From positions 1-64,000 of the forward strand of contig JADGEK010000009.1 in NCBI GenBank assembly GCA_016744395.1: DNA of 64,000 bases. Reading direction: 5' to 3'. Every line of letters begins with the position of its first letter. The stretch's first letter is position 1. Below are positions 36,549-60,239 of this stretch, piece by piece. This DNA is from Gammaproteobacteria bacterium. Its GTDB lineage: Bacteria > Pseudomonadota > Gammaproteobacteria > GRL18. The notes under the pieces were generated by a model. The model ran no database searches. It saw nothing but the letters and a program-made list of their open reading frames with translations, and had not been told where the DNA came from. The position numbers and the translations under genes are program-made.

Positions 36549-37202
36549 TTAATTATTATCTTGTTGTGCTGAGTTAGCAGTGGCTTCTGGAGCATCCGCA
36601 CCTTGTGGACCTATTGGACCAGCAGGTCCAGTTTGACCGATAGGGCCATCAGGACCTTCAGGGCCTTCTAATCCTTCTGGTCCCATAGGACCTTGAGGAC
36701 CAACTGCTCCTGTTTGACCGATAGGGCCATCTGGCCCTTCAGGGCCTTCTAAACCTTCTGGTCCCATAGGGCCTTGAGGCCCTACTGGTCCCGTTTGACC
36801 GATAGGGCCATCTGGCCCTTCAGGACCTTCTAAACCATCTGGTCCCATAGGACCTTGAAGTCCTACTGATCCCGTTTGTCCGATAGGGCCATCTGGCCCT
36901 TCAGGACCTTCTAAGCCATTTGGTCCCATAGGACCTTGAGGTCCTACTGGTCCCGTTTGACCGGTAGGGCCATCTGGCCCTTCAGGACCTTCTAGACCAT
37001 TTGGTCCCATAGGACCTGCAGGCCCCATAGGGCCAGTAGCACCTCGCTGTTTAATAGCCTTATTTATTTTTGCTTCCAAAGTCTCGACTCTACTGATAAG
37101 TAAAGCTATTAATTGTTTCTTTTTAACCTTTTTGCTGGTGCTCGATTTTTTATTTATTGATTTATCTATTTTTTTGTTGGATTTTTTTTTCTTTTTTGCC
37201 AT
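36549..37202 (-). CDS. collagen-like repeat protein
   Basis: About 217 residues from the preferred ATG (37202), which has AGGAGG eight bases upstream; an ATG two codons earlier is too close to that site. The N terminus is extremely lysine-rich, followed by a short coiled coil (LIALLISRVETLEAKINKAIK) that could trimerise the chain. From about residue 54 the protein is an uninterrupted Gly-X-Y run of roughly 50 triplets, containing five copies of a 27-residue unit (GPMGPxGLEGPEGPDGPxGQTG...), i.e. an 81-base DNA tandem repeat, and ends in a polar tail. There is no signal peptide. Bacterial collagen-like proteins serve as surface fibres, phage tail parts or structural elements; none can be chosen here. 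Confidence 0.85.
   Translation of the reverse strand: MAKKKKKSNKKIDKSINKKSSTSKKVKKKQLIALLISRVETLEAKINKAIKQRGATGPMGPAGPMGPNGLEGPEGPDGPTGQTGPVGPQGPMGPNGLEGPEGPDGPIGQTGSVGLQGPMGPDGLEGPEGPDGPIGQTGPVGPQGPMGPEGLEGPEGPDGPIGQTGAVGPQGPMGPEGLEGPEGPDGPIGQTGPAGPIGPQGADAPEATANSAQQDNN
36590..37044. repeat. 81-bp tandem repeat inside the collagen-like gene
   Basis: Five near-identical 81-base units encode the 27-residue Gly-X-Y block. Units differ by a few bases (for example GPNG, GPDG or GPEG at the sixth position and GPV, GSV, GAV or GPA near the end). Such repeats expand and contract by slippage or recombination, so copy number probably varies between strains. Confidence 0.8.
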
Positions 37203-37443
37203 GTCCATGACCTCCTTTAGTCACTTTTTTTATAGTATTATTATCAAAGAATAGCTTAAAATCAGATTAATTCATCATGGAAATTTTAAGTACAAATACC
37301 ATTAAGTTAATAGTCAACTATGTGAAATATTGGCATACTTTCATAGGAAGCTAAGTTTCATATCAGCTTAACCAAACTCCGTTTAAAGTCATTAAATATT
37401 ATCTTGTTTTGAAGTGCTATTGATAATCCTCACAATAACAACA

Positions 37444-46808: not shown

Positions 46809-47195
46809 TAGAATTTATAATGGCTTAAATCGATCCACAGATCGAAATATGCAAAAAAATCTCATGATAGAATTGCTCTATTAAATGAGTAATTGAAACA
46901 TTCTCGCTCGGTGAAGTGCTTATGAATACGAATGGTCAGAGGTTTGACTTGTCTTCCTTACAGTCGTTTTATAGGCTCTTCATCGAGTGGGAAACATTTC
47001 TCTTTCTGTTGATCTTGAACTACTGCAATGCTCACTTAGCTGTATGTATAGAACAACTTAAAAAACCTTTATTTTTGTCTTTTTAGAAACAAATGGTGAC
47101 ATTTGATTGACTTTAATATACAGATTAAAATAAAAAGAGTTAAAGTGATTTTACTTGACAGCAATTTTATTAATCACTAGAATAGCTCAAAATTT

Positions 47196-47400
47196 TTGTG
47201 GTGCTTTATCCAAATAAAAAGTGATAAAGCAGGGAAGTTGGTTAAATGCCAACGCTGCCCCCGCAACGGTAATTGATTGTACAATAGTAAAGCCACTGTC
47301 CAGTGCTTCCAATGAAGAAGCTTTGAATGGGAAGGAACTATTCATACGTAAGAATCTCTTTATAAATTCTTACCCCTCATAAGCCCGGAGACCGACCATT
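47196..47400 (+). promoter_or_regulatory. cobalamin riboswitch
   Basis: The core elements of the adenosyl/methyl-cobalamin aptamer appear in order: AAAGCAGGGAAG near 47226, the near-invariant GCTGCCCCCGCAACGGTAA at 47254-47272, GCCACTGTCCAGTG near 47292, GGGAAGG near 47330 and the B12 box AAGCCCGGAGACCGACC at 47381-47397. A perfect eight-pair side hairpin (GTAAGAAT...ATTCTTAC) lies at 47348-47373. It precedes a BtuB-type receptor gene by about 170 bases, a leader long enough for an expression platform, which I cannot resolve by eye. High B12 is expected to shut off the uptake operon. Confidence 0.93.
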
Positions 47401-47571
47401 AAAATCACTCTTAGCTATGCGGTGGGCGTGCAACGGGTCAGTTTGCCAATCGTTGCTAAACTCACTATCTGGCTTTCTTGATCCTTTTGCTCTATAGCAC
47501 ATAATTTGTATCTTACCCCTGCATTATAATTTACTTTTTCATTCACACGGGGTGTGTGTTCAGGGATCATT

Positions 47572-49519: not shown

Positions 49520-50509
49520 ATGAAGTTAAAAAAGCATCCATTAATATTTTTAAGCAGTCTTATTCTGCTGGTTTTTCTGAGTTTTAATTTTGCCCTGCTC
49601 ACTGGTTCAGGCAACCTGTCATCTCAAGAATTCTTTTCTCTTTTCTTTTCCCTAATCGATGGAACGGCTTCGCCTTTACATCAAAGTTTAGTGTTTGAAT
49701 TGCGTTTGCCAAGAGCTCTGGCTGCTTTTGCAGCAGGTGCCCTACTCTCAATTGCTGGTGTTTTAATGCAAGTGCTATTAAGAAACCCATTAGCCGACCC
49801 CTATGTACTGGGCGTCTCAGGTGGTTCGGCATTGGCAGCCCTACTGGCAATGCTTATGGGGTTTAATACCTTATGGCTCACAGGCAGTGCTTTCTTAGGG
49901 GCATTATTATCCATTTTTCTGGTTTTCTCATTTGCTCATAGCCAAGGTTGCTGGACCATTTCCAGACTATTACTCACAGGAATCATTTTAGCTTCAGGCT
50001 GGGGTGCCTTAATCAGTTTCGTATTGGTCATCTCACCACCCGAAAAAATTCATGGCATGTTGTTCTGGCTTATGGGTGACCTCAGTTATGACAGGCCGTT
50101 ATTACCGTCTTATTTAATTTTGCTATTTGGTTTTATCTTTACAATGGCAATCAGCCGTCAACTTAACATTCTATTGTGGGGAGATATACAGGCAGGTAGT
50201 CTTGGCATTAACATTAGGCGACTGAGAACATACATCTTTTTTATATCCTCATTACTCACTGCTGGCGCCATCACATTGGCGGGCAGCATTGGTTTTGTGG
50301 GCTTAGTCATACCTCATCTGGTACGTCTGATGATTGGTACCGATCACCGCTTACTTATCCCTGCCAGTGCACTGATGGGTGGTGCTTTATTGATTATTGC
50401 AGATACCTTAGCCAGAACCATGTTATCGCCACAACAATTACCCGTGGGTGTTCTCACTGCTTTAATCGGTGTGCCGCTGTTTCTTTATTTATTAAAAAGG
50501 AGCCAATAA
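49520..50509 (+). CDS. btuC: B12 ABC transporter permease
   Basis: FecCD/BtuC-type inner-membrane permease, 329 residues, about ten hydrophobic helices. Family motifs include LRLPRALAAFAAGALLSIAGVLMQVLLRNPLADPYVLGVSGGSA, GWGALISFVLV and AGSIGFVGLVIPHLVRLMIGTDHR. It follows btuB by 64 bases and precedes the ATPase gene by one base. Siderophore permeases share the fold; the riboswitch-driven operon points to cobalamin or cobinamide. Confidence 0.92.
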   Translation: MKLKKHPLIFLSSLILLVFLSFNFALLTGSGNLSSQEFFSLFFSLIDGTASPLHQSLVFELRLPRALAAFAAGALLSIAGVLMQVLLRNPLADPYVLGVSGGSALAALLAMLMGFNTLWLTGSAFLGALLSIFLVFSFAHSQGCWTISRLLLTGIILASGWGALISFVLVISPPEKIHGMLFWLMGDLSYDRPLLPSYLILLFGFIFTMAISRQLNILLWGDIQAGSLGINIRRLRTYIFFISSLLTAGAITLAGSIGFVGLVIPHLVRLMIGTDHRLLIPASALMGGALLIIADTLARTMLSPQQLPVGVLTALIGVPLFLYLLKRSQ

Positions 50510-50510
50510 A

Positions 50511-51299
50511 ATGTCTCTGAAAATAAAGAATTTAAGCCTTTCAATTGCTGATAAAGCCGTATGTACTCAACTGGATATCAGTTTTAATCCTGGTGAGTTT
50601 TGGGGCATAATGGGCGTTAATGGCGCAGGTAAAACAACACTTTTACAAACCATCATCGGACTTCCCAATCACAGTACACAACTCAATTCAGATTCAGGGA
50701 AAATTACTCTGAATGAACTCAATATCTATGATTACAAACGACTGGAGTTGGCAAAAAATATAGGATTGATGTTGCAGGAATATGAGTATAATTTTCCTTC
50801 AACCGTGCTTGAAGCCACATTGATTGGACGTCACCCGTTTATAAATAATTGGCAATGGGAAAATAAAAATGATAAAACCCTTGCAAATAAGGCCTTAGAT
50901 GCAGTGGGCATGGCCAGTTTTTCTGAACGCTCTGTCAATACACTGTCAGGTGGAGAAAAAAGACGATTGAATTTAGCTACTCTTTTGACTCAAAATCCTG
51001 ATTATTATTTACTAGATGAGCCCGTTAATCACCTCGATTTAAAAGCCCAGCTCGAAATTTTAAGCCTGCTAAAAAATATATTTAAACAGAAAAAACAATG
51101 TGGCATCATGGTCATTCATGATCCCAATCTGGCGTATCGGTACTGCGATCACATGCTATTACTGTATGATAATGGCCAATGGATATCAGGTAAGACACAA
51201 GATATTCTAACTCAGGACAACCTCAGCCGTTTATATCACTGCCCTATTCATCAATTAAATGATGAACAACACACTCTTTTTGTGCCTTTGCACGCTTGA
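50511..51299 (+). CDS. btuD: B12 ABC transporter ATP-binding protein
   Basis: 262-residue ATPase of the BtuD/FepC class. Walker A is GVNGAGKTT (near residues 36-44), the Q-loop QEYEYNF, the signature LSGGEKRRLNLATLL and Walker B YYLLDEPVNHLDLKAQ with the switch HDPNLAYRYCDH. It begins just after btuC. The gene end nearly abuts btuF, so the three ABC genes are surely one transcript. Confidence 0.92.
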   Translation: MSLKIKNLSLSIADKAVCTQLDISFNPGEFWGIMGVNGAGKTTLLQTIIGLPNHSTQLNSDSGKITLNELNIYDYKRLELAKNIGLMLQEYEYNFPSTVLEATLIGRHPFINNWQWENKNDKTLANKALDAVGMASFSERSVNTLSGGEKRRLNLATLLTQNPDYYLLDEPVNHLDLKAQLEILSLLKNIFKQKKQCGIMVIHDPNLAYRYCDHMLLLYDNGQWISGKTQDILTQDNLSRLYHCPIHQLNDEQHTLFVPLHA

Positions 51300-54295: not shown

Positions 54296-55435
54296 ATGAG
54301 AACGATACTTCAAGATACAATTTTAACACAACGTAAAATTCTGGTTGATTTACTGAAACAACCTCTGTCAAAACTGGTTTTAAAACTGGCAACTGACATC
54401 ACAAATACTGTTAAATTAGAAGCCGCTTTGCACGAAGCATTCCCCGTTTTTCAACATTGTAAATACCTCTATATCATGGATAACAATGGTATTCAGATCA
54501 CACAGACTATTTTAGCTCATAGCAGTGAATCCAGAAGCCTGGGTAGAGATCGTTCCAAACGTCCCTATATGCTGCATGACTTCTCTGTCGATGACTTTTC
54601 ACTGTCAGAAGCTTATATCAGTAAACACAATAAACGTCCATCAGTCACAGCAATTCATGTGATTAAAGATCACCAAAACACTCTCATTGGCTACCTGGGA
54701 GTAGACTATGATTTAAGAGAATTGCCAGGCACCAATCACCTTTATAAAGAGAACTATAAATGGCAGCAAATTAAAGGCGATCCAGCCATTCGCAGTGGTC
54801 TTTTTGCACAACAACGAATGCAAAGTGATATGGATAATCATCTTGAAAATGTGTTCGCCCTCATGCAGGCACTAATTTGTGAACACGGTGTTTTTCATGG
54901 AAAGTTTCATTTTTCCAGTAGCCGAACGACCATCTGGCTATTTGATGATCCTTATAACTATCGCCTTTTAAGCATGAATGAATTGAATGATCCTGATATC
55001 TGTCTGGCTTACCCGCGACATCCATATTCTGAACTTGCACAAGTGCCTGAGGCTGCTATACCAAAAATATTTGAATATTTCCAACAATTGCGTTTTGCAG
55101 ATGAAATCATTTATTTACGTGCAGGCTCTATTAATGTGGTCAATGGTATGATCAGTCTCAATTTTTCTTGTGACGGCTCTCATTATTTACCCTATCAAGA
55201 ATTTTTAAATAAAGGTATGGGATTTTGGTTTGGCACTGAGGAAATTGATCCCTTTCAATACGATGAACTCATTGAGATCATTTGCGGTAAAGGCTGTGAA
55301 TTTGTTTATAAACTCATTAAACAACACCGACAGGGAAATAAAGTAGAGGAACTGAGTAACATACCTCACGTTGAACAAGACAAAATAGTGAAAGAGCTGG
55401 AAACCATTATGCAGGTCTACAGTCATACCAATTAA
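54296..55435 (+). CDS. PDC/Cache-sensor domain protein
   Basis: A 379-residue soluble protein with a Cache-like (PDC) sensor in the first half: EAFPVFQHCKYLYIMDNNGIQIT, SLGRDRSKRPYMLHDF, SVTAIHVIKDHQNTLIGYLGVDYDLRELP. The second half contains a conserved region (GVFHGKFHFSSSRTTIWLFDDPYNYRLLS, LRFADEIIYLRAGSINVVNGMISLNFSCDGSHYLPY). I recognise it as a conserved 'PDC sensor domain-containing protein' of gammaproteobacteria with no assigned role. No membrane segment is visible, odd for a Cache domain. It stands alone, divergent from the TPR gene. Confidence 0.7.
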   Translation: MRTILQDTILTQRKILVDLLKQPLSKLVLKLATDITNTVKLEAALHEAFPVFQHCKYLYIMDNNGIQITQTILAHSSESRSLGRDRSKRPYMLHDFSVDDFSLSEAYISKHNKRPSVTAIHVIKDHQNTLIGYLGVDYDLRELPGTNHLYKENYKWQQIKGDPAIRSGLFAQQRMQSDMDNHLENVFALMQALICEHGVFHGKFHFSSSRTTIWLFDDPYNYRLLSMNELNDPDICLAYPRHPYSELAQVPEAAIPKIFEYFQQLRFADEIIYLRAGSINVVNGMISLNFSCDGSHYLPYQEFLNKGMGFWFGTEEIDPFQYDELIEIICGKGCEFVYKLIKQHRQGNKVEELSNIPHVEQDKIVKELETIMQVYSHTN

Positions 55436-55488: not shown

Positions 55489-56058
55489 CTAAAGCGATTG
55501 AATAATGAGTAATGTTTGAGCGGACAGCTTATTATTCACAAATTGACCTGGATAAGAAAAAACCTGTTCCACTTTTCCAGAAAAAGTGGCATAAAGTTTC
55601 GTATGATCTAAGTGCCATTGCACATGGACTAATTTATTTTTGGCAGTCGCATATTGGGCCTTTGCTTTAGAATATAGAATTTGAGCTTGCTGAAGTTCCT
55701 GTTCTGACAGTACAGTTCTATCATATAGCTCTTCCGCCCTTTCAAACTCTTTTTTGGCTTCCACCTGATTTAATTGCTCAAAACTGAGTTTTGCCTTAGC
55801 CGCCAATAGATTACTCATAATCAAATCAGAATCAAATTCAAGCAGCAACTCACCTTTTTTAACCGTTTGACCCGAAGTCACATGCACCTTTTTTACCAGG
55901 CCTGTGATGGGTGAAGTTATTTCATAACCCGCAATTACAGTACCTTCTGCCAAAACATTAGTAGACCATAGCTGTACGCTAACAATTAGAAAGCAAGTCA
56001 ACAAAAAGATACAATGTTTTTTCGAGATATAAGACATAAGCGTTTGTTTTTTATTCAT
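55489..56058 (-). CDS. short HlyD/MFP-type periplasmic adaptor
   Basis: A 189-residue exported protein with a signal segment near residues 17-37 (LLTCFLIVSVQLWSTNVLA) and only the lipoyl-hairpin-lipoyl core of a membrane-fusion protein: ITSPITGLVKKVHVTSGQTVKKGELLLEFD, an alpha-hairpin of about 70 residues, then LYATFSGKVEQVFSYPGQFVNN. The barrel and membrane-proximal domains found in RND or HlyD adaptors (usually 300 or more residues) are absent. It ends right after the lipoyl half, with a normal stop, so it looks naturally short. It overlaps tolC by eight bases and is the last gene of the group. No pump gene follows. Confidence 0.78.
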   Translation of the reverse strand: MNKKQTLMSYISKKHCIFLLTCFLIVSVQLWSTNVLAEGTVIAGYEITSPITGLVKKVHVTSGQTVKKGELLLEFDSDLIMSNLLAAKAKLSFEQLNQVEAKKEFERAEELYDRTVLSEQELQQAQILYSKAKAQYATAKNKLVHVQWHLDHTKLYATFSGKVEQVFSYPGQFVNNKLSAQTLLIIQSL

Positions 56059-57406
56059 AATAATTCATTACATTCCCAAGAAGTGAATCCAGTTTTGCCC
56101 AGGAAACTGCCAGTTCAAAAAAAGTTTGTGCTTTAAAAAGTTGTGCTTGACTGAGTTCTACCATGGCATCCCCCAAGTCACTGGTCACTTCCAGCTCATA
56201 CAATGCTCTGCTTTTATCAAGATACAAATCACGATATTCCATATTAAAATCGGGATCCGAATATTGTTGTTTCAAGTCACTGATTTTAAGCCAGAGCTCT
56301 AAAACTTGCTGTTCCAGTTCATATTTGATTTGCAGTTTTTCTGCTTTTAATTGTATTAATTCCCCTGCTGCATGCTTGATTTTCGCATTTTCCTGACCTG
56401 CCTGATAAAGAGGTACCCTCACTTGAATACCTGCACGGTATTTATCAGAACTGCCTAAATCACGTGCATAGTCAGCAGCCTGTAAATGCACACTGAACAC
56501 GGGGTACTTTTCTGCTTGAAACGCACTGAGTTTCAAGCGCATGGACTCAAGCTCGTGTTCAACAGCAATGAGCCGGGGATTTTTTTTATTGGCCAGTATA
56601 TACAGCTGCTCAACATCTTCAAGTTTTCTACTCACCGATAAGGCAGGTAAAGCATCAAGGTTAGGTTTATCCAGTTTTATTGACAATTGACCAGGGTTAA
56701 TGAGTTGAGCAAGGCGATGACGAGTCGCTCGTTGATCACTTAAGGCCTGAGTACGCTCCCTACGAGTGGCCCGGTAATCATTTTCGACCTTTAGCAATTC
56801 AATATCGGATATTTGTTTTAATTCAAATCTAGAGCGAACCTTATCAAGAGAAACAAAGTCAACAGCCATTGCCTCATTGGCATGGTCATAAATAATGTCC
56901 GCCAATAACACATTAAAATAGGCCTGGAGAATACTCACCTTACGTTTTGAAACATAGTCCGTATACAATGATTCGACTGAGGCCAGATGAGACTTACTGG
57001 CTTGAATATTCGCACTGGTTCGACCAAAGTCGTACAGTCGTTTGTGTATATCAAGACTGAGCTTACTGTCATTTGTTTCACTGGAAGGCACAATACTGGA
57101 TGGATCCACATAGCGCAATCGGCCATTAATTTCAGCAAATATTCCCTCTTCAGATAAAGCCAAATCTTGGTCAGCCACAGCCATCTGGCGCTGCGCAGAA
57201 TAATTCATTATTTCAGGTGATTCAGCTCGCTCTGCTCGGGCTAAAGCATATTTTAACGTCAAAGGTTCTGGCATTGTCGCTTGTGAATACGTTCCCAAAG
57301 ACTCATTTTCTGAAAAGTCTGAAGCAACGACACTCAAAGGCAACGTCATAAAACAACCGATTACCCCCCAGGACATCACTGTATTTGAAAAAGAATATTT
57401 TACCAT
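56051..57406 (-). CDS. TolC-family outer-membrane efflux protein
   Basis: About 451 residues from the ATG at 57406, which has the signal peptide (SNTVMSWGVIGCFMTLPLSVVAS) at its start and lies one base after the preceding stop; an upstream ATG adds 26 residues inside the previous gene. The OEP pattern of long helical hairpins shows in LKYALARAERAESPEIMNYSAQRQ, KSHLASVESLYTDYV, RSRFELKQISDIELLKVEN and YRAGIQVRVPLYQAGQENAKI. The family forms the exit duct of type I secretion and efflux systems. A TolC and a short adaptor adjoin, yet the inner-membrane partner is missing here. Confidence 0.85.
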   Translation of the reverse strand: MVKYSFSNTVMSWGVIGCFMTLPLSVVASDFSENESLGTYSQATMPEPLTLKYALARAERAESPEIMNYSAQRQMAVADQDLALSEEGIFAEINGRLRYVDPSSIVPSSETNDSKLSLDIHKRLYDFGRTSANIQASKSHLASVESLYTDYVSKRKVSILQAYFNVLLADIIYDHANEAMAVDFVSLDKVRSRFELKQISDIELLKVENDYRATRRERTQALSDQRATRHRLAQLINPGQLSIKLDKPNLDALPALSVSRKLEDVEQLYILANKKNPRLIAVEHELESMRLKLSAFQAEKYPVFSVHLQAADYARDLGSSDKYRAGIQVRVPLYQAGQENAKIKHAAGELIQLKAEKLQIKYELEQQVLELWLKISDLKQQYSDPDFNMEYRDLYLDKSRALYELEVTSDLGDAMVELSQAQLFKAQTFFELAVSWAKLDSLLGNVMNYYE

Positions 57407-57407
57407 T

Positions 57408-58025
57408 TTACTGAGATTTTTTTGCTTTATGAGCTCTTTTATATTTTGAAAATTTTGTTTTCTCATATTCTTTATCTGCGACATACTGACCTAATAACAG
57501 AAATTCATCAACGCTTCCAGTTCGGCCTGTGAAGCGCATCACTCGTTTACCCTGCAAATCAAAAAAAGCAATTACAGGGGTTGCTCTGACACGGTTTTCT
57601 TTAAAAGCAAAGTCTTTTTGAGTCATTGCTTTACCTTGAAAATTAGTCATTTCAACATCCCCTTCAATATCAACAGAAAAAATTAAGAAATTTTTCTTAT
57701 AATATTCCTGAACCGCTATCTGGTTAAGCACATTGGTTTTCATCCAATGACAGAACGGACACTCATCCATTTCAAAGAAAATTAAAATACCTTGCTTACC
57801 CTGCTCTTTTGCTGTTTCCAATTCCTCTGAAAAGTCACCAAAAGTGGCATCAAAAAAATGTTCTTCTGGATTTTTACTTGTTCCAGCAAAACTGCTTAAT
57901 ACCAAACCAAAACATAATACTAAAAAAGTAACACTTTTTATCCGGATGTTTGTGGTTATAAACTTACTATAAATACCAATAGACAATTTATTTCTCCTGT
58001 TAACTCTTGTCTGCAAATTGTGCAA
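57408..58025 (-). CDS. SoxW-like thioredoxin-fold protein
   Basis: A periplasmic thioredoxin-like protein. The frame opens at 58025, inside the preceding gene, but an AGGAG seven bases before a TTG at 57986 suggests that start. A signal segment (TFLVLCFGLVLSSFAG) precedes the domain, whose CxxC is in ECPFCHWMK; the cis-proline loop is RATPVIAFFDLQGKRVMRFTG. This combination matches the SoxW/thioredoxin-2-like group found in sulfur oxidisers and others. It overlaps or follows tlpA and is followed immediately by tolC. Reductase versus oxidase role is not decided. Confidence 0.8.
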   Translation of the reverse strand: MHNLQTRVNRRNKLSIGIYSKFITTNIRIKSVTFLVLCFGLVLSSFAGTSKNPEEHFFDATFGDFSEELETAKEQGKQGILIFFEMDECPFCHWMKTNVLNQIAVQEYYKKNFLIFSVDIEGDVEMTNFQGKAMTQKDFAFKENRVRATPVIAFFDLQGKRVMRFTGRTGSVDEFLLLGQYVADKEYEKTKFSKYKRAHKAKKSQ

Positions 58026-58485
58026 TCAATTTATTTAATCGACGTTCAGTGACCATACCTGTGATTTTTTTAGCCACATTACCCTCTTGATCAATCAGGA
58101 TGGAGGTTGGTAAACCTCGTGGTTCACCTAAAGCATCAATAATTTCATCATTCACTCGGGTTATAGGGTAAGAGACCAGATACAAAGCAATAAACTTTTT
58201 CAAACGCTCATCTTTGAGTCCTGGTTCATAATTAACACCAATAACGACAGCATCTTCGTTGTCCAGATGAAAATCTGACAAATCAGGAATTTCTTTTCGA
58301 CAAGGAGGACACCAGGTCGCCCAAAAATTAACCAAAACCCACTTTCCCTTATATTGGGACAGTTTATGCGTCTCACCTTCTGTATCTGTAAAAGAAAAAT
58401 CAACGGCGAATGCTGTTGATGAAAGAAAAAGAGCAATAGTTAAGGTTAAAAGCTGAATAATTCGATTTATTTCTTGTTTTAACAT
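58000..58485 (-). CDS. TlpA/ResA-like thiol-disulfide protein
   Basis: A periplasmic thioredoxin of about 161 residues. ATG at 58485 is preferred to the upstream one at 58512 because the signal segment (RIIQLLTLTIALFLSSTAFA) begins there. The active site is WCPPC (FWATWCPPCRKEIPDL) and the cis-Pro loop RGLPTSILIDQEGNV. TlpA-type proteins reduce disulfides in cytochrome c or oxidase maturation or in other exported substrates. It lies between yihY and the SoxW-like gene, overlapping the latter's open frame. Confidence 0.85.
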   Translation of the reverse strand: MLKQEINRIIQLLTLTIALFLSSTAFAVDFSFTDTEGETHKLSQYKGKWVLVNFWATWCPPCRKEIPDLSDFHLDNEDAVVIGVNYEPGLKDERLKKFIALYLVSYPITRVNDEIIDALGEPRGLPTSILIDQEGNVAKKITGMVTERRLNKLIAQFADKS

Positions 58486-58528
58486 AAAAATGGCCATGAG
58501 ATTTTTTATCATATATATTTCGTTCTTT

Positions 58529-59731
58529 TTATTCGTTATAAGTTGTAAAGAGTATTTTTACGGGTACATTCAGAACCTCAGAAAGTGCCTTATTGCTTTG
58601 ACCTATCAAGTGAGACAAAGGTTCCTCTGATGTTGATTTTGGTAATGGATAAGGCAATTTCTGATACAGATCCCATAGTGTTATGGGTTCCAAATCAATT
58701 CCAATAGCCCATTTATCAGCGTCAGTTTTTAAAATCCATCCTAATGATTCTAATTCTAACAGAATATCATTGAGTAATTTCTCATGCCGTAAAAAAGGTT
58801 CGTTGTGAATTTCTTCATCGCTTAATGTGTCACCTGTTAAAGAGGCCTTAGATAAAGTCCTAAGCACATGAAAAGCAGATTGAAATTGATGCACGGTATA
58901 GGAATGTTGAGAAATAGAGAAATCAAATAATGACATTGAGCGAGTGGTGACAGCCCCTAATAAGGTGACCAACCATGAAATATAAATCCAGATTAAAAAG
59001 ATAGGTACAGTCGCCAAAGCGCCATAAAGACTGTTATACGTTGTATTGTGGCTGACATACAATGCAAAACCTCTTTTTGACAATTCGAAAAAGAGCGTTG
59101 CAGCCAGCCCGCCGATCAGAGCATGTAATAATTTCACTCGGGTATTAGGTACCACAAGATAAATTAATGTAAAGGCCAAAAATGTCATAATCATCGGAAT
59201 CATTAATAACATCTGAGAACGCACACCAATGGAGTCTGCGGCACTGGTAATCAATGGCAGTGAAACAATATAAGATGTAACCATCAAACTCATTCCCATT
59301 AACACAGGCCCCAAAGTCAATACAGCCCAGTAAGTCAGAAAAGTACGTAATAGGTTTTTACCCTTATTAACACCCCAGATATGATTAAGAGCACGATCAA
59401 TTTGCCACATAAGCATTAATGCCACAGCAAAGAGCCCTAGCAATCCCACCAATGTGAGCTGAGATGCCTTACCTACAAACTCATTGAGATAATCCTGTAT
59501 CTGTTCACTGGACGAAGGAATAAAATTGGCAAAAATAAAAGATTGAATTTGTTGAAATAAATCCTGGAAAACCGAAAAGGATGAAAAGCCAGCGAAGATA
59601 ACGGCCAGCAGAGGAACCAAAGATAAAAGAGACGTGTAGCTCAGTGATGATGCCGCTTCAGTACATCGTAGTTGTGTAAATCGTTGGAACACAAACAGAA
59701 TAAAACGAAAAAAAATATTGAAATACTTCAT
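58529..59731 (-). CDS. yihY: YihY/UPF0761-family membrane protein
   Basis: Integral membrane protein with six hydrophobic segments and the family signature AASSLSYTSLLSLVPLLAVIFA, plus MWQIDRALNHIWGVNKGKNLLRTFLTYWAVLTLGPVL and YNSLYGALATVPIFLIWIYISWLVTLLGA. A soluble C-terminal extension of about 120 residues follows. The ATG at 59731 (MKYFNIFFRF) is preferred: the frame continues to 59848, but that end contains the terminator hairpin of the upstream gene. The family was once called RNase BN in error; its function is unknown. It seems to head the tlpA-soxW-tolC-adaptor run. Confidence 0.85.
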   Translation of the reverse strand: MKYFNIFFRFILFVFQRFTQLRCTEAASSLSYTSLLSLVPLLAVIFAGFSSFSVFQDLFQQIQSFIFANFIPSSSEQIQDYLNEFVGKASQLTLVGLLGLFAVALMLMWQIDRALNHIWGVNKGKNLLRTFLTYWAVLTLGPVLMGMSLMVTSYIVSLPLITSAADSIGVRSQMLLMIPMIMTFLAFTLIYLVVPNTRVKLLHALIGGLAATLFFELSKRGFALYVSHNTTYNSLYGALATVPIFLIWIYISWLVTLLGAVTTRSMSLFDFSISQHSYTVHQFQSAFHVLRTLSKASLTGDTLSDEEIHNEPFLRHEKLLNDILLELESLGWILKTDADKWAIGIDLEPITLWDLYQKLPYPLPKSTSEEPLSHLIGQSNKALSEVLNVPVKILFTTYNE

Positions 59732-59817
59732 CTGAATAAATATCTGCTTAATCTGTCCAATGGAAAAAATGATAGCAGGTAAACCTTTTTCAAAGCCTCT
59801 TATGACTTTTTCAATAA

Positions 59818-59845
59818 AAAAAGGGAGATTTTCATCTCCCTTTTT
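59818..59845 (-). terminator. Rho-independent terminator after the SoxXA-binding-like lipoprotein gene
   Basis: AAAAAGGGAGA (59818-59828) and TCTCCCTTTTT (59835-59845) form an eleven-pair stem with a six-base loop, ending in a T-run on the minus strand. It lies 32 bases after the stop of the lipoprotein gene and separates it from yihY. Confidence 0.85.
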
Positions 59846-59876
59846 CAAGATTAAATACCTTTAAAGTATTCTATAG

Positions 59877-60239
59877 CTACTTAAAACGTGCTGCAACTGC
59901 TTTATCTTGCTCAGCACTTTGTTTTTTAGCCATTTCTGACTGCTGTAGTGCTTTAGTAGCCAAAGATGTTGCCTTAGCGGTATCCCCTTCTGCAAGCGCT
60001 TTTTCAGCTTGCTTGATGAATTTACCTGTATCACGCCAAGCATAGCCATCCGCAACAGCAACTTTAAGTTTTGCTTTTGCATCATTGATGATGTTTTGTA
60101 CTTTTTGGTCATTTGCAGAAAGCGTCTTTTCAGTGGCCGAAGAGCCCGCTGAAGATGATTCTGTTGTTTGACAACCTGTTACAAGACCCATTGCTAAAGC
60201 AGCCACCCCCAGATACTTAGCATATTTTGTAAATTTCAT
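59877..60239 (-). CDS. small helical lipoprotein, SoxXA-binding-protein-like
   Basis: A 120-residue lipoprotein with lipobox VTGC (Cys23), a Ser/Thr-rich spacer and a helical core (KVQNIINDAKAKLKVAVADGYAWRDTGKFIKQAEKALAEGDTAKATSLATKALQQSEMAKKQ). The WRDTGKxIKxAExA..GD...A..LA pattern is the one I know from proteins annotated as SoxXA-binding proteins (SoxK/SAXB) in sulfur oxidisers; alanine-zipper Lpp-like proteins are the alternative. It ends at a strong terminator. No sox genes are in this window. The 60240-60564 region upstream shows no convincing gene. Confidence 0.65.
   Translation of the reverse strand: MKFTKYAKYLGVAALAMGLVTGCQTTESSSAGSSATEKTLSANDQKVQNIINDAKAKLKVAVADGYAWRDTGKFIKQAEKALAEGDTAKATSLATKALQQSEMAKKQSAEQDKAVAARFK

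Follow-up and report, generated by a model that had tools for sequence, protein, structure and literature searches.

A conserved gene set of a SoxW-like thioredoxin, a TolC-like channel and a reduced adaptor in sulfur-oxidising gammaproteobacteria hints at a transfer route across the outer membrane

What can a TolC-type channel do when the genes packed around it encode thioredoxins and a shortened adaptor instead of a pump? The question is raised by a 64,000-nucleotide stretch of contig JADGEK010000009.1 (assembly GCA_016744395.1, a gammaproteobacterium of the lineage GRL18), hereafter the window, in which five tightly packed minus-strand genes at 55489-59848 encode an adaptor, a TolC-like protein, a SoxW-like thioredoxin, a TlpA/ResA-like oxidoreductase and a YihY family protein. 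The set is hinting at an unrecognised transfer route across the outer membrane, perhaps for sulfur compounds. The reading favoured here, and held tentatively, is that of a sulfur-oxidiser-specific conduit leading from the periplasm through TolC to the outside, with a soluble adaptor as opener, thiol-redox proteins as helpers and a putative sulfur cargo. Its observed foundations are the gene content, the conservation, the domain architecture, an intact docking motif and the link to sox and dsr genes. The component families are known, while their combination and the reduced adaptor constitute a new variant. The features of the locus are as follows.

55489..56058, minus strand: mini adaptor, 189 residues (Pfam Biotin_lipoyl_2, 4.5e-10; NCBIfam RND_mfp, 90.5 bits; AlphaFold2 pLDDT 91.7)
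55705..55740, minus strand: RLS motif of the adaptor hairpin tip, RAEELYDRTVLS, residues 107-118 (regular expression on the sequence)
56051..57484, minus strand: TolC-like outer-membrane factor, 477 residues from the first ATG (Pfam OEP, 4.7e-25; TIGR01844, 75.7 bits)
57408..58025, minus strand: SoxW-like periplasmic thioredoxin with a CPFC active site (Pfam Thioredoxin_2, 1.6e-15)
58000..58512, minus strand: TlpA/ResA-like thiol-disulfide oxidoreductase, 170 residues, WCPPC (Pfam AhpC-TSA, 4.6e-21; NCBIfam ResA, 98.2 bits, and TlpA, 75.3 bits)
58529..59848, minus strand: YihY/BrkB family inner-membrane protein, likely start 59731 (TIGR00765, 250.5 bits, above the cut-off)
59877..60239, minus strand: small lipoprotein resembling the SoxAX-binding protein, directly upstream of YihY (NF052674 SAXB, 69 bits, E 4.1e-19)

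The five genes lie where the earlier note had placed them, all on one strand (its end point, 59731, is an ATG within the YihY frame), and Pfam and NCBIfam back every family name, with several scores falling under curated cut-offs (for ResA, 98.2 bits against 170; the TlpA score is also below its threshold). The adaptor and TolC-like genes overlap by 8 bases. Depending on the choice of TolC start (an alternative internal ATG lies at 57406), the TolC-like and SoxW-like genes overlap by 77 bases or are separated by a 1-base gap; the SoxW-like and TlpA-like genes overlap by at most 26 bases, the SoxW-like start (TTG at 58025) being uncertain, and a 16-base gap lies between the TlpA-like gene and YihY. 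The SAXB-like gene at 59877-60239, overlooked in the earlier note, is likely a further member of the set, with a score below the curated cut-off of NF052674 (69 against 95 bits). Downstream, the set is bounded by a convergent gene at 54296-55435; its open reading frame (ORF) of 379 residues is 82-87% identical in close relatives and has only a sub-threshold match, to Cache.

The earlier note had let its proposed operon stand or fall with the conservation of the gene order, and the order is conserved. Clear adaptor orthologs of about 168-201 residues were found in most searched genomes of the genus, and the order SAXB-like, YihY, TlpA, SoxW-like, TolC, adaptor recurs wherever the contig reaches far enough, some loci lacking one member or another. 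For wider sampling, the SoxW-like alignment was scanned against 84,980 species genomes, yielding 370 relatives, of which the best 80 were kept (the alignments used, A1 to A4, drew on part of the rows, namely 15, 59, 30 and 43, respectively, A3 comprising the window and 29 of 58 long TolC ORFs). These best 80 belong to gammaproteobacteria and unplaced proteobacteria, including Thiohalomonas, Thiohalophilus, Sedimenticola, Thiodiazotropha and Chromatiaceae, and named carriers include Thiohalophilus thiocyanatoxydans DSM 16326, Candidatus Thiodiazotropha endoloripes and Sedimenticola. TolC follows the SoxW-like gene in 66 of them (64 of 79 by automatic count, plus L125 and L138), two of the 80 loci lying at a contig edge. 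An adaptor was found in 57 of the 80, and an acylphosphatase-like gene (named by eye) follows it in 34 of 56 loci. Upstream, 79 loci hold TlpA in 47 cases, a SAXB relative in 40 and YihY in 28, which makes YihY a looser neighbour; the upstream and downstream counts over these 79 loci rest on automatic ORF picking. In L106, L108, L112-L115 and L134, a YqhA/UPF0114-like membrane protein (by eye) takes the place of TlpA, and at least one of the SAXB-like lipoproteins found upstream in relatives (L054) carries a LysM-like tail (by eye).

A second sample consisted of 369 genomes drawn evenly from the class, in which strong SoxW-like matches (E at or below about 1e-39) were separated by a clear gap from paralogs near 1e-30, and an E of 1e-40 was applied to the TolC profile. 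SoxW-like genes were present in 97 genomes, TolC-like genes in 90 and both in 89; the two were adjacent, in the same order and on the same strand, in 84 of the 369 (84 of the 89 with both), usually overlapping or lying at most 20 bases apart. The SoxW-like/TolC order is thereby beyond chance. The adaptor follows TolC in at least 79 of the 90 TolC genomes, a count that may miss distant-type adaptors, and the triple of SoxW-like gene, TolC and adaptor is complete in at least 75 of the 84 pair-bearing genomes.

The company that the pair keeps points to sulfur. Among the 84 pair-bearing genomes, soxB occurs in 80, dsrA in 63 and either gene in 82, while the corresponding numbers for the remaining 285 genomes of the class sample are 71, 54 and 81. 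Fisher's test for the enrichment of soxB or dsrA (82/84 versus 81/285) gives p ~3e-33 with genomes treated as independent; since the genomes are related, this value overstates their independence, but the odds are large nonetheless. Furthermore, soxB is present in 90 of the 97 genomes of the sample that have a SoxW-like gene. The tie of the set to sulfur metabolism by co-occurrence is thus strong. The genome of the window (G000) has two soxB loci (contigs C162 and C99) and two dsrA loci (C75 and C205), and is, judged by gene content, that of a sulfur oxidiser.

If the set is real and sulfur-linked, what has become of its adaptor? The protein runs from an N-terminal hydrophobic segment (a signal peptide by eye) through one half of a lipoyl domain, an alpha-hairpin and the second lipoyl half to the stop codon. 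In the AlphaFold2 model (59 sequences), a hydrophobic N-terminal helix is followed by lipoyl strands, helices at 78-113 and 119-151, and lipoyl strands again, where the chain ends. VIA-align superposes it on AcrA 65-209 (Z 16.0, root-mean-square deviation 2.0 Å, 145 residues aligned, 24% identity), and a Foldseek search returned the same kind of adaptors. Model and alignment both contain the lipoyl domain and alpha-hairpin of a periplasmic adaptor, and both agree with the earlier note that the barrel and membrane-proximal domains are gone: the beta-barrel is absent from the model, and the chain ends at the lipoyl domain. The hairpin tip carries the RLS motif, RxxxLxxxxxxS, which the accessible part of PMC3391258 gives as the published TolC-docking signature. 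Compared with adaptors of the AcrA, MexA and MacA type (RND_mfp, TIGR01730), the mini adaptor has the lipoyl domain, alpha-hairpin and RLS motif in common, but is devoid of beta-barrel, membrane-proximal domain and a transporter partner gene, and narrowly misses the family cut-off (90.5 versus 94.9 bits).

The relatives show that this brevity is no peculiarity of one genome. Among the 57 adaptors, lengths are bimodal (12 at 168-196 and 45 at 250-287 residues), and further short ones occur in G318 (166 residues), G076 (179), G131 (158), G247 (158) and G214 (about 175). The smallest seen, at 158 residues, stand in L216 and L217 (genomes of 1.4-1.6 Mb), where the SoxW-like, TolC and adaptor genes form one run. 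The 45 longer adaptors are big enough for a barrel, as was confirmed by a model for one of them, the 257-residue protein of Thiohalophilus thiocyanatoxydans (L156; pLDDT 94.3), in which a barrel is added and the AcrA match extends to residue 298, where the chain too stops short of a membrane-proximal domain. The strict RLS motif is found in 41 of the 57 (12 of 12 short, 29 of 45 longer), and the hairpin tip is the best-conserved stretch of the family. A TolC tree, in which three rows have very long branches, implies at least three switches between short and long adaptors, two of them forced by well-supported branches, and one adaptor (L118) is short amid long relatives. Barrel-less adaptors occur in several lineages of the sampled relatives. 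On the models, the adaptor has its TolC-facing half, while the pump-facing half is missing, completely here and in part in other relatives.

Such a short protein might be regarded as the decayed pseudogene of an ordinary efflux operon, all the more as its RND_mfp score falls just below the family cut-off and one very close pair of adaptors gives a ratio of nonsynonymous to synonymous substitution rates (dN/dS) of 0.512, albeit from few changes (dS 0.05). This explanation is nevertheless highly improbable: 12 of the 57 adaptor loci, as well as five further genomes, carry intact short ORFs, three more diverged pairs show dN/dS values of 0.074, 0.130 and 0.168 (dS of the first being saturated), and both barrel halves are gone while the remaining fold is intact. 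The adaptor is intact and under purifying selection, and its interpretation as a relic was rejected. A truncated copy of a paralogous complete efflux operon, the finding by which the earlier note would have been overturned, did not emerge either, since no other adaptor-family match in the own genome scores above about 40 bits with the mini adaptor, and the stronger ones adjoin RND genes of their own.

The channel itself is recognisable as a member of the TolC family by its two OEP stretches (Pfam, 88.9 bits) and by a profile match to solved TolC chains at 5e-12. It differs from that family in its divergence (75.7 bits against a TIGR01844 cut-off of 225) and in being encoded beside thioredoxins rather than a pump. 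As the earlier note had it, no RND, MFS or exporter ABC gene adjoins the set in the window; inspected by eye, the BtuC/BtuD-like genes at 49520-51299 resemble those of a vitamin B12 importer. For the relatives, neighbours in a span reaching from 4 kb ahead of the set to 5 kb beyond it were clustered, and 78 of the 143 cluster representatives (those of at least 180 residues) were compared with Pfam. No RND, MFS or MacB-type family was present among the 25 of 106 Pfam families listed for these 78; the sole ABC match listed was a soluble-type ATPase in L154, and the neighbours with many transmembrane segments, read singly, were an ammonium transporter, DsbD, an acyltransferase-like protein and a chromate transporter. 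No tripartite pump, and no inner-membrane transporter of one, was seen among the 78 representatives.

The pump could of course be encoded elsewhere, with the channel and adaptor serving a normal tripartite system and the mini adaptor perhaps acting as an accessory to a full-size adaptor, like TriA, which pairs with TriB. This is a possibility that we consider realistic without expecting it. The own genome holds at least 15 RND genes (15 with an adaptor on the same contig) against 6 outer-membrane-factor genes, for which reason the factors must be shared and the explanation stays alive, and the top solved match of the adaptor profile is an RND adaptor fusion (6vej, 1.8e-56). However, the orphan pump for which the earlier note had suggested looking was not apparent: among the strong RND matches, to which this check was confined (weaker ones lie on C173, C145, C37 and C19), every gene has an adaptor on its contig except for a half gene on C36, possibly the other half of a gene at the contig end of C56. 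Moreover, no pump accompanies the set in the loci examined, and more than one lineage has adaptors without pump-facing domains.

The thioredoxins raise a further question, namely whether they belong to the duct at all. The SoxW-like protein matched no SoxW model in Pfam or NCBIfam, only Thioredoxin_2 (1.6e-15) and, weakly, DsbH, so that its name is given by analogy. It is 85% identical to its nearest relative and more than 50% across families, and CPFC is kept in 79 of 80 SoxW-like ORFs. With SoxW/SoxV and TlpA/ResA/DsbD, the thioredoxins of the set share the fold, the CxxC motif and the tie to sox genomes; unlike SoxW/SoxV, the SoxW-like protein is encoded in no sox cluster in the window, and the CPFC lineage forms a separate family that goes with TolC. 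Two functions might be combined in one sulfur-linked operon, the thioredoxins reducing cysteines of periplasmic Sox proteins or cytochromes and the TolC and adaptor serving an unrelated purpose such as stress export. In keeping with this, 12 of 80 loci (all from Thiohalocapsa, Halochromatium, Thiocapsa, Thiorhodococcus or other Chromatiaceae) retain the SoxW-like gene but have neither TolC nor adaptor, TolC and adaptor stand apart from the SoxW-like gene in G257 and G143, no more than 47 of 79 loci have TlpA upstream, and soxW is thiosulfate-responsive in Bradyrhizobium according to the available part of PMC5748708. The adjacency of the SoxW-like gene and TolC in 84 of 89 genomes with both, usually with overlap or at most 20 bases between them, speaks against such independence, and we judge it unlikely. 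In the Chromatiaceae-type genomes L109, L117, L120, L127, L150, L152, L157, L161, L162, L163, L166 and L170, the SoxW-like gene adjoins the acylphosphatase-like gene with no TolC or adaptor between the two, as though the central genes had dropped out.

Under the favoured reading of a conduit, a dedicated TolC-type channel would work with a soluble periplasmic adaptor cut down to its TolC-binding parts. By analogy with published tip-to-tip docking, the ring of adaptor hairpins would dock, by way of the RLS motif, onto the tip of TolC and open the channel. Because the adaptor has no remaining domain with which to engage an inner-membrane transporter, the load would be taken from the periplasm itself, and loading would be passive. 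The TlpA-like and SoxW-like thioredoxins may maintain the thiol or persulfide state that the load, or its carrier, needs, and a DsbD-type protein would probably return them to their reduced form. In the own genome a single gene of the DsbD type is present, away from the set; the best direct hint of reducing power being fed to the set is L130:12928-15282, where DsbD lies directly downstream of the adaptor and is followed by a TlpA-like gene. The likeliest load would be reduced or zero-valent sulfur (polysulfide, persulfide or thiosulfate-derived sulfane) that passes between the Sox machinery of the periplasm and the exterior, although this cargo is guesswork that takes its cue from the sox/dsr link. 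The earlier note had suggested that the exported cargo or the duct depends on thiol chemistry; the sulfur connection of that suggestion is strongly supported (sox/dsr co-occurrence, clustered redox genes and DsbD in L130), whereas the cargo, export itself and the thioredoxin target are what we infer. A stronger version, in which a two-part, pumpless conduit for export or exchange would be driven by thiol/persulfide exchange instead of ATP or a proton pump and form the outer-membrane sulfur gate of sulfur-oxidising gammaproteobacteria, is doubtful.

Several points weigh against the conduit. The barrel is kept in most relatives and can contact a transporter. EmrA, according to the accessible part of PMC4158417, lacks the membrane-proximal domain and yet functions with an MFS pump. 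The 12 Chromatiaceae-type loci with a SoxW-like gene and neither TolC nor adaptor imply a role of the thioredoxin that is independent of the duct, and the own SoxW-like gene lies outside any sox cluster, the soxB loci being on C162 and C99 and the window on C88. The excess of RND genes over outer-membrane factors belongs to the same side of the balance.

Precedents for the loss of whole domains in adaptors are provided by EmrA and BesA, the former lacking the membrane-proximal domain and the latter the hairpin (PMC4446572, available part). They differ from the mini adaptor, as EmrA has a barrel and a pump and BesA has lost the TolC-facing hairpin, which here is the half retained. Searches of an open-access library gave no paper that connects a TolC/adaptor set with a SoxW-like thioredoxin, and neither their results nor the accessible part of the 2026 review PMC13328181 described a barrel-less adaptor. 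The TolC/Cus remark in the available text of a Thiohalobacter paper (PMC6504805) concerns another cluster, and that of a Riftia symbiont paper (PMC7787665) describes TolC as abundant in small symbionts in terms from which the TolC meant could not be told.

Elsewhere in the window, a cobalamin riboswitch (77.2 bits) at 47182-47414 stands ahead of TonB-receptor-like and BtuCDF-like genes (by eye), and the gene at 36549-37208 encodes a protein of 219 residues in which long, collagen-like runs of Gly-Pro repeats were recognised by eye.

TolC channels are understood as the exits of pumps; if the reading of a conduit is true, adaptors can open such channels on their own. The set would then also be a concrete candidate for the route by which reduced or zero-valent sulfur crosses the outer membrane of sulfur oxidisers, and since it is found in named, cultured or well-studied organisms, it is testable.

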